From positions 310,001 through 374,000 of the forward strand of contig NZ_CP045488.1 of the NCBI RefSeq assembly GCF_009392895.1: a stretch of DNA of 64,000 nucleotides. Direction: 5' to 3'. The translations under genes were made by a program, and so were the position numbers. Position 1 is the first letter of the stretch. The number at the start of each line of letters is the position of its first letter. This document shows positions 18,485 through 24,513 of this stretch, piece by piece. This DNA is from Natronorubrum aibiense. GTDB taxonomy: Archaea; Halobacteriota; Halobacteria; Halobacteriales; Natrialbaceae. The notes beneath the pieces were generated by a model that was given only the letters and a program-made list of their open reading frames with translations, had not been told where the DNA came from and ran no database searches.

Positions 18485-18572
18485 CGCGAGTCACGGTCGA
18501 GCGGCACCGACACCGGGTCGTGTGTTCGGTCTGATAAAAACGCTGATACAGCCACCACACCAATCGGCTGCT

Positions 18573-19040
18573 ATGAGCGACAACTCGTGGACGGACCGGA
18601 TCGTCGGCGCGCGAATGACCGTCGATCAGTCGTTTTCGACGCGGATCGCGGACTCGGAGTTTTCGAACCAGCAGTGGAGTCTGATCATGACCGCTACGGA
18701 GTTCGAGATGGAACATGCCGACGACCCCGACCGCGCACGGATCGTCGCCAACACCGACAGCGTCGAACAGATCATCCCCGAACTCGACAACATGCCGACT
18801 GGAATGGGCGCGATGGGTGGGCAGGGAGCCGGCCAGCAAGGTGGGTCCTCGAGCGGCGGCCTCTTCGGCTCGATCAAGGGCGCGCTCGGGCTGGGCGGTG
18901 GCGACGACGGCGACGGCGACGCCGAGAAACTGCGGGCCGCCGAACGGCTCACCCAAGAGTACGCCGAGGAGTTGCAGGCTCACCTCGAGTCGGAAGGGCG
19001 CTGGGAGTCGGTCCGAAAGGCGGCAGCCGTCGACGGGTAG
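18573..19040 (+). CDS. DUF5799 family haloarchaeal protein
   Basis: This 155-residue acidic protein begins MSDNSWTDRIVGARMTVDQ and contains EFSNQQWSLIMTATEFEMEH. A Gly/Ser-rich low-complexity segment (about residues 78-118) follows, then a C-terminal helical part AERLTQEYAEELQAHLESEG. It matches a haloarchaea-specific family that I believe is DUF5799. The function is unknown. A TATA-like ctgataaaaa at about 18532-18541 suggests its own promoter. Confidence 0.78.
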   Translation: MSDNSWTDRIVGARMTVDQSFSTRIADSEFSNQQWSLIMTATEFEMEHADDPDRARIVANTDSVEQIIPELDNMPTGMGAMGGQGAGQQGGSSSGGLFGSIKGALGLGGGDDGDGDAEKLRAAERLTQEYAEELQAHLESEGRWESVRKAAAVDG

Positions 19041-19123
19041 CTGTTGACTGTCGGGACCTGCCGTCTGCGGATACACACTCCGAAGCCACAGCACCTATAG
19101 GTGCGCTGCCCGACCGTACGGGT

Positions 19124-19414
19124 ATGAGCGATGACGTCGAAACCACGACCGTCTCGATCAGCACCGACGATGACACGACCGACGAAGTGACGATTCCGTC
19201 CGGACTCATCGATCTCGTCGCGGAGGGCGACCAGACCGAGGCCGAGACGATCGGCGACGTCGCGCTGCTGTCGTTCGCCAGCCGCGCCCACCATCTCGTC
19301 CACCACGGACAGGGCGCAAACGAGGAGCTCGAGGCCCAGGAAGCCCGTATCATGGACCTGTTCGAGGAACGGTTCGGCGTCACCTACGGCGAAGCGACCG
19401 GTCACCAGCACTGA
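19124..19414 (+). CDS. Conserved haloarchaeal small protein
   Basis: This 96-residue acidic protein starts MSDDVETTTVSISTDDDTTD and has a helical C-terminal part, SFASRAHHLVHHGQGANEEL then ARIMDLFEERFGV. It has several histidines but no clear metal motif. A TATA-like cctatagg lies about 27 bases before the ATG, fitting a leaderless transcript. I do not recognise a function. Confidence 0.75.
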   Translation: MSDDVETTTVSISTDDDTTDEVTIPSGLIDLVAEGDQTEAETIGDVALLSFASRAHHLVHHGQGANEELEAQEARIMDLFEERFGVTYGEATGHQH

Positions 19415-19542
19415 GACAGCGACCGCGGAACGACTCGAGCGATTTTTGCCACCACAGTAGGACACCGAGAAAAATGGCCGACGGGATTGGGACGACCACG
19501 GCACTGTAGTTCTGTGAGTCAGCCGTTGGCGTCTTCAGCTGA

Positions 19543-22500
19543 CTATCCCGCAGTCCGGGCTATCGTAACACCGACCGAGCCCGGACTACCGGGAACGGGT
19601 GAGGATGCCGACTGCCCGGCGAATGGATCGTCAAACGGTCCCTCGTCGAACGGATCATCAGATTGGTCTTCATCGAACGGATCCTCCGTCGGTCCGTCAT
19701 CCGGTGGCTCGTCGGTCGGCCCCTCATCGAACGGATCCTCCGTCGGTCCGTCTTCCGTCGGCCCGTCTTCCGTCGGCGGGTCCGGCTCATCGACCGACTC
19801 GATCGTCACCGTCGTCTCGACGAGTTCGGTCTCGCTCGAGACAGTAACCGGGTACTCGCCGGGCTCGAGTGCGGCGGTGTCCGCGGTGAGCGTCAGCGTC
19901 TCCGCCGCGCCGGGCTCGAGCGAGACCGTCGCGGCATCGACGACAGTGTCGCCGACGGCGAGTTCGATCTCCTGGGTACCCGCCTCGCCGCCGACGTTCT
20001 CGACCTCGATGGCGACCTCGAGCAGCGTTCCCTGTTCGACGGAATCGGTCGTCTCCGTGATTGAGACGGCGAACTCGGCCGGTTCGCTCGGCACGATCTC
20101 GCCGGCCGTCGCGGTCGTCGCGGGGTCGACGGCGTCCGCGTCGTAGTCGTATCTGGTCATGTCGACCGCCCAGACGAGCCGCTCGTCGTCGCTTTCAGGC
20201 GTCCACTCGACGGAGAACGTGTTCTGTCCGGGCTCGAGTTCGTCGACTGGCTCGTCCGCGGTCGCCCCCTCAACGAACTCGCTGTCGACGAGCAGGGCCG
20301 CGTCGTTCGGGTTCTCGTAGCCGAAAGTGACCTCGATGCCGTCCTCGGTCGGCGTCGTCTCCTCGACGCTGAGTTCGGGGAGTTCGGGGCGGACGTCCTC
20401 GAGACACGCCTCTGCGTCGGGGTTCGGGTAGTCAATCTCGCCCGGCGTCGCGTCGGGCGAGGCGACACCGGTGATTGCGGCACCAAAGTCGCCCTCGGGA
20501 ACGGTAACGGTCGCACCGTCGTCGGTCTCGGTGACGGTGAACTCGTCGCCGGTCTCGTACGTGATCGTTCCCTCGAACGGCGCGTCGACGTCCTCGCCGA
20601 TCGTGATCGCGTACTCGCCCATCGTGTTGCCGAAGCCGCCCGACTCGTAGAACCCGGTGGCGACGATGACCGTCTCTCCGTCCTCGAACGAGCCCGTCAC
20701 CTCGGCTTGCGAGCAGTCGGTAAACTCGACGTCGAACGCTGTCGGCTCGTCCTCGAGCGTGTACTCGACGGTCTCGTTCTCGAGGACCTGTTGATCGTCT
20801 AGCTCCGCGAGTGACACCACGGCCACCTCGAGCGTCGAATCGGTCTCGAGTGGCGGCTTGAGGTCGAGATCGACGGCCGACGCGGTCTCGTTTCGCTCGA
20901 ACGGCTCGCTCTCTACGAGTTGCTCGCCGTCCTCGTCGGTGACGGTGAGCGCGTAATCGACCGACGCAGTCGCCTCGTCGACGGTGAGCGTTTCGCCGTC
21001 GCCCGTCTGATCGGCCACCTCGAGCGTGGCGAGTTCCGCTCCCTCCTCGTCCGTCTCGTTCGTGTCATCGACTGGCTCCGCTCCCTCCTCGTCCGTCTCG
21101 TTCGTGTCATCGACTGGCTCCGCTCCCTCCTCGTCCGCGAGCGTGTACTCGAGGGATTCGGTCGCGAGTTCGTCACCGTCGGGACCGATAACGGAGACGT
21201 CGACGGTCGTGGAGTCCTCGAGCGGCGGCTCGAGGGGGAGTTCCAGATCAGTGATCGTCTCCTCGGCCTCGAACGTATCACTCTCGACGATCGTGTCGTC
21301 GGCGGTGGCCGTGACAGTGAACTCGACGTCGGCGCTCGCCTCGTCGACGACGAGCGTCTCGCCATCACCCTCCTGATCGCTCACCTCGAGGGTCGCGTCC
21401 GGCTCGTCGTCGTCCGCCGATTCCTCGGGCTCGTCAGTTCCCTCGGATTCCTCGACGCCGTCGACCGCACCACCGGTCACCAGCGCCGTATCGAGGATCG
21501 GACCGCCGCCGGGAGCGACGTACGGCTCGTCCTCCGCGCCGTCCGTCTCCGCGTACTGGAACGTCTCGTCGCCGGTCGTGTCGTGGTGGACCACTGCGAC
21601 GAGCGATTGCTCGCCCTCGAGTGGGTCCTCGAGATCGATCTCGACGTCGCTGTGCGATCCGGGTTCGAGGTACGCAGACGCGCCGACCACAGCAGCCGGA
21701 TCGACGGTGCCGTCGTCGTAGAGCGCCACGAAGCCGCCTTCTGAGAGGTCGACAGTGTCGATGACGACCGCGTCGTCGTCGCGCTCCTGGTCGGTGAACG
21801 AGACCGTCGCTTGGCCCTCGAGGGCGTCGATCTCCTCGACGCGTTGCTCGAGGTCGGCCTCGAGGAACTGGCTGAGGTCGGCAGTCGCCGCGTCGTCGTC
21901 GACCCCTTCCTCGACCGCGTACGCCGTGGCGTCGGCTGCGGCGTCCGACGTGAGTACCTGCAACTGCGTGATGCTGATCTGCTGGTACTGTACCACTCGG
22001 GCCGTCTCCTGACCGGCACTGCTGGCTGCGAGCTGGAGCTGTTCGACGGTCGCTTCCTGGGATTGTTCCAGCACGCCGCTTGCGCTGCCCGCGGCAAGCA
22101 CCTGAACTTGCGTCACGTCGACGACCTGCCGCTGGATCACGGCACCCTGACCCGCACCGAACGCAGCGGCCTGAATCTGTTCGATTTCGACGGTCTGCGA
22201 CTGGATCGCCGTCCCAACCGCGCCCTGTGCGGCACCGACAGCGGCGGACTGGATCTGTGTGATCGAAATTTCCTGGTACTGGACGAGCACCCCGCCGGCA
22301 GCCCCGTCAGCAGCGGCCTGAATCTGCTCGACCGATGCCTCCTGACTCTGGCTGATTGCTCCCTTGGCCGCGCCGAAGGATGCCTCCTGAATCTGCGTGA
22401 TCGAGATCCGTTGGACCTGTTCGATACTGATCGACTGGACCTGTATCAACGCCCCTTTGCTCGCTCCGCGTGCGGCGGCCTGTGTCTGCTCGACCGAGAC

Positions 22501-23478
22501 TTCCTGATGCTGGACCAGCGCTCCCTTCGCAGCCCCGGTCGCGGCCTTCTGGATCTGTTTGACCGTCGCCCGCTGGTACTGTCCGACCTCGATACGCTGT
22601 TCTTGCTCGAGGACGGTCTCGCTGCTCCCCTCGAGCGCGCCCGCGGATGCACCCGCGGCCGCGTTTTGGACATGATCCAGAGTGATCTGCTGGCGCTGTT
22701 CAGCCGTAATCTTCTGGTACTGCTCGAGCACGCCGTAGGATGCGCCCTGTGCGGCTTCCTGGATCTTCGGCGCGTGGGTGATGTCTTTATCCCCGGCCTC
22801 GCTCGCCGCTCCGGCGGCCCCGCCGCGGGCTGCGACCTGAATCTGCTCGACGGTCACGCGCTGTTCCTGAGCAATCGCGCCGTGTGCGGCCCCCCACGTC
22901 GCACTCTGCATCTGGCTCGCCGAGACCGTCTGGGATTGAGCGAGCGCGCCGTCGGTCGCCCCGCTGACGGCGTACTGAACCTGTTCGGCTTCGACCTGCT
23001 GGGCTTGCATCAGCGAGCCGTGGACAGCCCCCGTCGTCGCCTCCTGAACCTGCCCGACGTCGGCTTGCTGATGCTGGATGACCGACTCACGTGCGCCCTC
23101 GAGCGCCGCCGCTCGTTGCTCTTGCGTTACTTCGACACCCTGCGATTGGGCCAGTTCGATGCCCTCATCGACGCCGGCCTCGACAGCGTCTTCTTGTTGG
23201 ATCGACAGCGACCCCTGGGTGCCGCTGGTGGCGTCTGTCTCCACCGTTGACTCCATCGACACCAGTTCGAGGTCGCTGGCAACGCTGTCGGAACTGGAGC
23301 CGAGTTCGGTCTGTGAGCCGTCCGCCGACTCTGGCGATTCGCCGGCCGTGTCGTGCGTACGCTCGTCATTGCCATCATCGGTCGGAACGAACCCACCACC
23401 GAGCATGGGCAGTGCCATCGCACTCGTCATCAACAGCGCAACGACGAGCACCACGGCGATCGCACCCCGACTGCTCAT
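19543..23478 (-). CDS. Giant secreted repeat protein (23-residue Gln/Ala repeats, DUF7282-like and CARDB-like domains)
   Basis: This 1311-residue protein has a hydrophobic signal segment (residues about 5-24). Residues about 113-515 form roughly sixteen copies of a 23-residue repeat of the form (I/V)Q-x-A-A-x-G-A, x-x-G-A-L-x-Q, then x-Q-x-(V/I)-(S/T)-x-x-Q. Some copies carry an extra eight-residue VQRISITQ-like insertion. A beta domain at about 555-670 (GGFVALYDDGTVDPAAVVGA) resembles haloarchaeal DUF7282. Several beta-sandwich modules follow, including a CARDB-like one near 1130-1225. The tail is Asp/Pro-rich (PTEDPFDEGPTDEP). No C-terminal membrane anchor or PGF-CTERM motif is visible, so it is probably released or held by other surface parts. 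Function unknown; a structural or adhesive surface role is inference. Confidence 0.85.
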   Translation of the reverse strand: MSSRGAIAVVLVVALLMTSAMALPMLGGGFVPTDDGNDERTHDTAGESPESADGSQTELGSSSDSVASDLELVSMESTVETDATSGTQGSLSIQQEDAVEAGVDEGIELAQSQGVEVTQEQRAAALEGARESVIQHQQADVGQVQEATTGAVHGSLMQAQQVEAEQVQYAVSGATDGALAQSQTVSASQMQSATWGAAHGAIAQEQRVTVEQIQVAARGGAAGAASEAGDKDITHAPKIQEAAQGASYGVLEQYQKITAEQRQQITLDHVQNAAAGASAGALEGSSETVLEQEQRIEVGQYQRATVKQIQKAATGAAKGALVQHQEVSVEQTQAAARGASKGALIQVQSISIEQVQRISITQIQEASFGAAKGAISQSQEASVEQIQAAADGAAGGVLVQYQEISITQIQSAAVGAAQGAVGTAIQSQTVEIEQIQAAAFGAGQGAVIQRQVVDVTQVQVLAAGSASGVLEQSQEATVEQLQLAASSAGQETARVVQYQQISITQLQVLTSDAAADATAYAVEEGVDDDAATADLSQFLEADLEQRVEEIDALEGQATVSFTDQERDDDAVVIDTVDLSEGGFVALYDDGTVDPAAVVGASAYLEPGSHSDVEIDLEDPLEGEQSLVAVVHHDTTGDETFQYAETDGAEDEPYVAPGGGPILDTALVTGGAVDGVEESEGTDEPEESADDDEPDATLEVSDQEGDGETLVVDEASADVEFTVTATADDTIVESDTFEAEETITDLELPLEPPLEDSTTVDVSVIGPDGDELATESLEYTLADEEGAEPVDDTNETDEEGAEPVDDTNETDEEGAELATLEVADQTGDGETLTVDEATASVDYALTVTDEDGEQLVESEPFERNETASAVDLDLKPPLETDSTLEVAVVSLAELDDQQVLENETVEYTLEDEPTAFDVEFTDCSQAEVTGSFEDGETVIVATGFYESGGFGNTMGEYAITIGEDVDAPFEGTITYETGDEFTVTETDDGATVTVPEGDFGAAITGVASPDATPGEIDYPNPDAEACLEDVRPELPELSVEETTPTEDGIEVTFGYENPNDAALLVDSEFVEGATADEPVDELEPGQNTFSVEWTPESDDERLVWAVDMTRYDYDADAVDPATTATAGEIVPSEPAEFAVSITETTDSVEQGTLLEVAIEVENVGGEAGTQEIELAVGDTVVDAATVSLEPGAAETLTLTADTAALEPGEYPVTVSSETELVETTVTIESVDEPDPPTEDGPTEDGPTEDPFDEGPTDEPPDDGPTEDPFDEDQSDDPFDEGPFDDPFAGQSASSPVPGSPGSVGVTIARTAG
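19618..19794 (-). repeat. Low-complexity region encoding Asp/Pro repeats
   Basis: Short imperfect repeats of the coding unit TEDGP/TEDPFDE recur at the C-terminal end of the giant secreted protein (about residues 1229-1287). They are visible as repeated ggatcctccgtcggtccgtc-type segments on the plus strand. Confidence 0.75.
21035..21137 (-). repeat. 42-base direct tandem repeat inside the giant gene
   Basis: A 42-base unit encoding DEEGAEPVDDTNET occurs twice without change, from about 21035 to 21118, followed by a third partial copy of about 19 bases. The identity of the copies points to recent duplication by slippage. It lies in the linker between two similar beta modules (near residues 780-820). 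Confidence 0.85.
21934..23142 (-). repeat. Array of 23-residue protein repeats
   Basis: About sixteen copies of the 23-codon unit described for the giant protein run through this interval. The copies are diverged at the DNA level, so this is an old, selected protein repeat and not a DNA tandem repeat. Gln positions flanking short beta-like stretches and the AAxGAAxGA core are the best conserved. Confidence 0.8.
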
Positions 23479-23922
23479 GACTCGAGTCCCCCACGGGCGG
23501 TCGTGGTCGGCTCCCAGCCGATCGCTACCCCACCGAGGGCCGACTGCTGTCTCCGGGACGCCCCCTGATAGTGTCGACTGTTAATAGTTCGCATGAATAA
23601 CATCGGTTTCCCACCACCGGTCTGACCGAGTCAATAAGCCCCGCTGGTCGTTTCAGTTAGGCGAGAGACACAATACGAGGTTATCGTCACCGGACGCGAC
23701 AGTTCGAGCGAGTCGATCGCCGACCGGTGTCGAGACCATCGCCGCCGAGCCCCCGTTGGGTCGGCTAACTCGAGTGGCCAGTAGGATGAGAGGTAGCGGC
23801 CTGTTTCGGGCCGTACACAAGCGCCCCGAGTTACGTCGAACCTTTCGACGGTCGACGACGAGTGGCTGTCGCGCGTCTCGGAAACCGAAGTGTTGAACTA
23901 GGTTTACGAGAGTGACGGTGGT
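23479..23922. other. Intergenic region between the giant gene and bioY
   Basis: These 444 bases separate two divergent genes. A TATA-like ctattaac (complement of about 23579-23586) could start the giant-gene transcript with a leader of about 75 bases. The bioY end holds the BirA-like operator described separately. I see no credible coding sequence in between. Confidence 0.5.
23878..23909 (+). promoter_or_regulatory. BirA-like biotin operator upstream of bioY
   Basis: TCGGAAACC (23878-23886), exactly 14 bases, then GGTTTACGA (23901-23909) matches the known BirA operator layout TTGTAAACC-N14/15-GGTTTACAA with 7 of 9 and 8 of 9 identities. It ends 13 bases before the bioY ATG and overlaps the expected core promoter. 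Repression of the biotin transporter by a biotin-loaded BirA with a DNA-binding domain is the natural reading. Confidence 0.65.
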
Positions 23923-24513
23923 ATGGCAACGGAACACAACTCGGTCGCGCTCGTCGACGGCGACGTCGTTCGTCAGTTCGCTCGAGCGGCACTGCTCGCA
24001 GCGCTGCTCGGTGCGGCAGCGCCCGTCTCGATCCCGATCCCGCTATCGGCGGCACCACCGATCACCTTACAGGTGCTGTTCGTCTTCCTCGCCGGTCTCG
24101 TCCTGGGGCCGGTCTGGGGACCCATCTCGCTGCTCCTCTATCTCGCTGCGGGAGCCATCGGGCTGCCCGTCTTCTCGGGGATGAGTGCGGGACTCGGCGT
24201 ACTGGTCGGCAACACGGCCGGCTACCTCTGGTCGTACCCGCTCGCCGCCGGCCTGATCGGACTCGTGATCCATCGGGACACCGAGCTTCGAGATCCTGCT
24301 GCCGTTTCGCTTCCGGTCGTCATCGTCGCGCTCGTCGCCGGGACGATCCTCATCTACGGCATGGGCACCGGCTACATGGCCTGGCTCCTCGAGATCGGGG
24401 CGTGGGAGGCGATCACTCTCGGCGCGCTGCCGTTTATCCCCGGCGAACTGCTCAAGATCGCCGCGGCGATCGCGATCGTCAAAAGCGGCCGCATCGGGCC
24501 GGTTCGATCGTGA
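23923..24513 (+). CDS. bioY: Biotin ECF transporter substrate-binding subunit BioY
   Basis: This 196-residue protein has about six membrane segments and the BioY pattern: PITLQVLFVFLAGLVLGPVW near residue 46, LLLYLAAGAIGLPVFSGMSAG, and GTGYMAWLLEIGAWEAITLGA. It is the biotin-binding S component of an energy-coupling factor transporter. BioM and BioN follow on the same strand. A BirA-like operator overlaps its promoter region. Confidence 0.95.
   Translation: MATEHNSVALVDGDVVRQFARAALLAALLGAAAPVSIPIPLSAAPPITLQVLFVFLAGLVLGPVWGPISLLLYLAAGAIGLPVFSGMSAGLGVLVGNTAGYLWSYPLAAGLIGLVIHRDTELRDPAAVSLPVVIVALVAGTILIYGMGTGYMAWLLEIGAWEAITLGALPFIPGELLKIAAAIAIVKSGRIGPVRS

Follow-up and report, generated by a model that had tools for sequence, protein, structure and literature searches.

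Units of 20-29 residues that pair a strand with a helix build the alpha/beta solenoids of the leucine-rich repeat (LRR) type, and units of 19-23 residues with conserved Gln/Asn build the curli proteins CsgA and CsgB. Here we compare with these systems a gene of Natronorubrum aibiense that is located on the minus strand at positions 19543-23478 of the window (the whole stretch of 64,000 nucleotides that was analyzed, positions 310,001 to 374,000 of contig NZ_CP045488.1), and that encodes a secreted protein of 1311 amino acids with an array of about sixteen 23-residue repeat units. As in LRR proteins, a strand and a helix would alternate in the array, and the conserved strand Asn/Gln may form ladders; covariation favours this alternation, whereas AlphaFold2 shows no strands. 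The array differs from LRR proteins in its Val/Gln strand core and Ala/Gly helix, and in data that suggest two units per turn instead of one; in addition, the profile searches found no LRR family (LxxLxLxxN core) at E<=1 in the window protein or in seven relatives. With curli, the array shares unit length, secretion and, putatively, polar ladders in alternating strands. However, the AAxGAAxGA half of its unit is helix-like, Pfam scans of the window protein and relatives gave no Curlin match, and there are no csg-like genes among the neighbours examined. Haloarchaeal surface proteins with DUF7282 and CARDB modules are related in another way: both modules lie downstream of the array in the window protein, but the repeat is not part of them, and many such proteins have no array. 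Finally, the designed helical repeats DHR8 and DHR79 are the top, non-significant Foldseek neighbours (E 0.25, template modelling score 0.15-0.18) of a low-confidence model of the N-terminal half of the array, a model that is unsupported in the canonical half.

We propose, with a probability of about 0.5, that the array is a new strand-helix repeat forming a rod with Gln/Asn ladders and an adhesive or self-associating role. Each unit would begin with a beta strand (positions 1-9/11, QxQxVxVxQ) and continue as a short alpha helix (positions 12-22, AAxGAAxGALx). Stacked on one another, the units would make a rigid rod with almost no charge, probably an alpha/beta solenoid in which two units (46 residues) complete one turn; Gln ladders (Asn in a paralogue) and the close packing of the Ala/Gly helices would hold it together. 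The rod would be the working end of the secreted protein and would most likely mediate self-association or adhesion within the cell envelope or matrix; the acidic DUF7282 and CARDB (Ig-like) modules downstream would serve as a soluble stalk.

The repeat unit and its charge

The array, delimited by pattern, autocorrelation and covariation, covers residues ~93-522 (positions 21913-23202, minus strand). Its 23-residue unit has the consensus QxQx[VI]x[VI]xQ[IVL]QxAAxGAAxGALx, in the register Q1-x-Q3-x-V5-x-V7-x-Q9-[IVL]10-Q11-x-A13-A14-x-G16-A17-A18-x-G20-A21-L22-x. For residues 101-545, the autocorrelation of identity reaches its maximum at lag 23 (0.26 versus 0.11 after shuffling, z=10.1), and lesser peaks at lags 8, 31, 46 and 54 arise because the 23-residue units are combined with 8-residue inserts. 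A strict pattern detects 14 units, starting at residue 139 and ending with the unit at 476-498, at spacings of 23, 23, 23, 26, 31, 39, 23, 31, 23, 23, 26, 23 and 23 residues, which reflect inserts of 3 and 8 residues. The strict units are flanked by an Ala-rich helix (93-115), a degenerate unit (116-138) and a truncated unit ending at about residue 522. The figure of about sixteen copies, given by an original prediction that was made from the letters of the sequence without database searches, is thus a fair one. The 8-residue inserts, to which that prediction had ascribed the strand pattern of the unit, do indeed repeat positions 1-8 (QxQxVxVx) once more; in relatives, as many as four of these octads follow one another in tandem. 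In two relatives, L093 and L094, the C-terminal ~60 residues contain solitary octads (QSQSVDVSQSQ) between Gly/Ser linkers, without a helix half; the stretch before them is very rich in Lys (KKPKKRSK), and such a basic region is odd in a secreted protein of haloarchaea. Tandem Repeats Finder reported no tandem repeat in the DNA of the array, which indicates that the copies are old and have diverged at the DNA level.

The array gave no match in Pfam, NCBIfam or PHROGs, and none in the PDB, either by phmmer with the single sequence or with a 36-row profile. Further diverse array proteins likewise showed no family above its cut-off across the array, and Rfam had no match in positions 19000-24000. 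For the libraries searched, these comparisons confirm the array as a repeat module of an undescribed family, in agreement with the earlier statement that no named family has this motif.

The array is rich in Ala, Gln (17.7%) and Gly, and contains almost no Pro. An uncharged module is unusual in an extracellular haloarchaeal protein. In the array, Asp plus Glu make up 10.7% and Lys plus Arg 4.4%, a net charge of -6 per 100 residues, compared with -28 for residues 557-1311. Among 53 non-redundant relatives the median net charge per 100 residues is -1.2 in the array and -23.8 in the downstream part. With such near-neutral charge, the array may be packed in an assembly or have a surface that functions in another way, and it questions the view that salt-exposed haloarchaeal proteins require an acidic surface.

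Strand and helix in the unit

The periodicity of the unit was analyzed by mutual information with average-product correction on 1,288 distinct units (~550 effective). Coupling among positions 1-9 occurs at lags 2, 4 and 6 and is almost nil at odd lags, whereas positions 12-23 couple at lags 4 and 3 and little at 2, 5 and 6. With the four Gln fixed, so that degenerate units could not account for the result, pairs on the same face of the strand had a mean of 0.033 and pairs on opposite faces a mean of -0.001. Both signatures recur in the Natrialbaceae and in other families, which were analyzed apart. Additional evidence comes from paralogues in which Asn replaces Gln, L150 (G271:C6:276449-278026), L152 (G289:C3:78224-79798) and L153 (G286:C3:739621-741174), whose description rests on the full sequences of L150 and L152. 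Their unit, NQNVNVNVVQNAAFGAAQGA, occurs ~17 times, with NVNVNV in place of QxQxVxV. The hydrophobic moment of its positions 1-9 is maximal at 180 degrees (0.66 versus 0.27 after shuffling), and that of positions 10-22 at 90 degrees. These paralogues have ~610-630 residues, carry an RR motif close to the N-terminus, end in a Pro/Glu tail, are without DUF7282, and are confined, in our samples, to one genus of the family that contains Halorussus. Because of the moments of the Asn unit, the lag couplings and their recurrence in two sets, the unit is best read as a strand at positions 1-9 and a helix at positions 12-23, and the strand-like and helix-like halves of the original prediction are borne out by both lines of evidence.

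The structure predictions point in part to a different arrangement. AlphaFold2 on residues 85-545, with an alignment of 11 rows, placed a ~17-residue helix in each of the first ~7 units (predicted local distance difference test (pLDDT) 70-90) in one of five models; the five disagree, with mean pLDDT from 45.7 to 29.4, and have no confidence past the N-terminal half. For residues 304-541, with 22 rows in a two-block alignment, no fold was obtained (pLDDT 34.5), the C-terminal half remaining at ~25-35. Rows with a shifted register, meant to deepen the alignment, were put back in register by MAFFT. Foldseek found no significant match of the N-half model in the PDB or among viral models. These helices are what would be expected if the repeat were all-helical, an alpha-solenoid with a ~17-residue helix per unit (positions 7-23) and antiparallel Ala/Gly packing, in which xVxV would be the helix N-cap (capping box plus hydrophobic staple) and QxQ would lie at the C-cap. 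The closest, non-significant PDB folds, which are designed helical repeats, are consistent with such an arrangement, and so are the couplings 21-14, 13-20 and 18-13 of successive units, the I/V/L at position 10, and two traits of the strand half that resemble the start of a helix: T/S/N/D occupies position 6 in 74% of units, and Pro is concentrated at positions 7 and 8 (56/113). An all-helical unit does not agree with the coupling of positions 2, 4, 6 and 8 on one face at lag 2, with values near zero between opposite faces, nor with the ~17 occurrences of NVNVNV in the Asn paralogue, nor with octads that stand in tandem or, in L093 and L094, apart from any helix motif. Because of the Asn paralogue and the covariation, we rank the all-helical repeat below the strand-helix unit and consider it unlikely.

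Several observations nevertheless weigh against the strand-helix unit. The helix-start residues at positions 6-8 are among them; in addition, no AlphaFold2 model contains a strand, and the canonical C-terminal half has no predicted fold. The strand half of the Q-type unit has a weak hydrophobic moment. The mutual information carries no correction for descent, and the two sets also agree in their lag-3 maps (r=0.44). Finally, simple geometry has not yet reconciled the 4.8-A spacing of strands with the spacing of helices.

With regard to the stacking of strand-helix units, the similarity between units is highest at lag 2 (z 8.5), above lag 1; it is positive in most single arrays, few of which are significant alone. 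In the canonical half of the window protein, position 8 alternates as K E T E T E T E. Couplings between units n and n+2 are in register or one helical turn apart (19-19, 23-19, 19-15, 12-12 and 4-4, in both sets), and those between n and n+1 run via buried small residues and fit antiparallel helices (21-14, 13-20, 18-13 and 14-19). Since units n and n+2 resemble each other and couple more than n and n+1, a turn of two units, 46 residues, is suggested. A solenoid, as originally proposed, is likely on these grounds, but that proposal is only partly upheld: covariation sustains the helix and strand halves, whereas the predictions show helices only in the N-terminal half and leave the canonical half without a fold. 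The array may thus serve as a test case in which AlphaFold2 with a shallow alignment fails and repeat-averaged covariation yields clear secondary structure. A further claim, that this would be a new fold, a two-sided alpha/beta solenoid with Gln/Asn ladders and a 46-residue turn of two units that builds uncharged rods or fibres on the surface of cells that live in saturated salt, is a tentative one; if true, it would break the rule of a highly acidic composition for extracellular proteins of haloarchaea.

The Gln/Asn ladders also bring to mind amyloid. Amyloid fibrils such as HET-s are reported to draw stability from ladders of Asn and Gln, which are typical of amyloid and beta-solenoids (PMC7556116), and amyloid has been discussed for Haloferax volcanii biofilms (PMC4180959). 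The array could then be a functional amyloid-like subunit, whose Gln/Asn strand units would polymerise between molecules in the matrix, as in curli, and its Gln content, near-neutral charge and scarcity of Pro would suit this role. On the other hand, there is no Curlin match in Pfam, half of each unit shows helix-type coupling, and the order of the units is fixed across the family, which a polymerising repeat would not need; we consider an amyloid-like subunit improbable.

Conservation and distribution of the array

The array is present in 104 of 125 Natrialbaceae genomes at E<=1e-5, with full-length identities mostly of 56-85%; among named relatives, those at 80-85% belong to Natronorubrum. 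An even sample of the order Halobacteriales gave matches in 121 of 392 genomes, of which 42 belong to four families other than the Natrialbaceae, and named carriers there include Halorussus halobius, Halobaculum marinum and Halomicrococcus gelatinilyticus. The family containing Halorussus has the array in 25 of 28 genomes, another family in 14 of 146, and a phylum-wide sample of 393 genomes gave no array match beyond the order. For bacteria, the search covered plasmid records and, in a single scan of low sensitivity, genome contigs. A viral origin was rejected, as two scans of viral contigs and a tblastn search of phage records yielded no relative. The original prediction had missed that the near-uncharged array is a conserved, syntenic trait over five haloarchaeal families, with Asn-ladder paralogues and anchored relatives. 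Most genomes of this large family of haloarchaea share a conserved module that lacks a name, a structure and an assigned function.

The order of the units and the positions of the inserts are nearly identical across genera, and even in distant members of the family each unit is matched by the one at its own place in the order (rank correlation 1.0). Within the Natrialbaceae, the ratio of non-synonymous to synonymous substitution rates (dN/dS) of the array is 0.12-0.25, indicative of purifying selection. In twelve orthologues the array is the best conserved large part of the protein, with identities of 59-87%, compared with 22-77% for DUF7282 and 0-51% for the tail. These data bear on whether the array lacks a fixed fold and is a flexible, low-complexity spacer or linker, as its Ala/Gln/Gly-rich composition and the very low pLDDT across the canonical half might suggest. 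A linker would hardly be better conserved than the folded DUF7282 domain, have such low dN/dS values or show periodic covariation, and we regard this explanation as highly improbable. Likewise, disorder of the array is unlikely because the unit order is fixed and the units covary.

In other families the array is fused to different partners: a series of DUF7282, TSP3 repeats, a NosD-type beta helix, CARDB or a CAP domain. Several of these relatives, among them proteins of the Halorussus group, end in a hydrophobic segment with Arg, which is likely a membrane anchor, whereas the Natrialbaceae orthologues have no C-terminal anchor; some relatives carry twin-arginine signals. The array is constant and the remainder is exchangeable, with or without an anchor; we read the array as the probable working end. 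Its regular, uncharged Gln/Ala surfaces would suit self-association or binding to a regular surface, and in the envelopes and biofilms of haloarchaea the array is a candidate for a structural or adhesive component. We also considered a haloarchaeal precursor that is cleaved into an antimicrobial (PMC12893001); the available part of that source names no such repeat or domain.

Among the relatives, L077 (G014:C1), of 2292 residues, combines the array with TSP3 repeats and many Ig-like modules; it has a CAP/SCP domain close to its C-terminus and ends in a membrane tail. In L071 (G259:C28:413111-414693) a frame change after ~490 residues breaks the array, which resumes in another frame; this is either a disrupted gene or a sequencing error.

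The remaining modules and the neighbouring genes

The open reading frame of the window protein starts with ATG, and its N-terminus is common to relatives. The predicted signal peptide (residues ~1-25, MSSRGAIAVVLVVALLMTSAMALP; positions 23404-23478, minus strand) is a hydrophobic segment with a Kyte-Doolittle value of 2.7; it aligns with the signal peptides of relatives and by inspection appears to be of the Sec type. The modules downstream of the array lie on the same strand. The first is a DUF7282 domain (residues 557-668, positions 21475-21810; Pfam PF23951, E 2.3e-33, 115 bits versus a gathering score of 27), followed by two degenerate DUF7282-like modules with acidic linkers (residues ~695-764 and ~817-887, positions 20764-21474), which at 16.4 and 21.3 bits score under the PF23951 cut-off of 27 bits. 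Two unnamed conserved modules come next, at residues 906-1040 (positions 20359-20763; 33-83% identity in orthologues), without a Pfam match over the cut-off, and at residues 1041-1125 (positions 20104-20358; 56-87%), also without a Pfam match. The CARDB module (residues ~1126-1232, positions 19783-20103) passes the gathering score of PF07705 as an isolated segment (27.3 bits versus 22.7) and is unlisted in the whole-protein scan. The protein ends in an Asp/Glu/Pro tail (residues 1233-1311, positions 19543-19782) with 30% Asp/Glu and 20% Pro; hydropathy shows no C-terminal hydrophobic segment, and the PGF-CTERM/archaeosortase signature, a hydrophobic C-terminal segment followed by basic residues, is absent here and in the Natrialbaceae orthologues. 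The signal peptide, the DUF7282-like and CARDB-like modules, and the Asp/Pro tail without an anchor had all been anticipated correctly. Residues 905-1299 share 43% identity with a 1146-residue open frame at C1:2691155 of the same genome; unlike this C-terminal part, the array is present in that genome without a second copy.

The gene sits between a DUF7545 gene and bioY-ecfA-ecfT in nearly all of the Natrialbaceae loci that were examined. These neighbours were rejected as functional partners: their order is not preserved in other families, and the arrangement therefore appears to reflect inherited synteny and not a functional partnership. Most of these loci also retain the DUF5799 and DUF7545 genes (positions 18522-19040 and 19121-19414 in the window) in their place downstream of the gene with the array. 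Antisense to the whole array, on the plus strand, there is an open frame of 479 amino acids (positions 21811-23250), most likely a by-product of codon bias in repetitive, GC-rich DNA.

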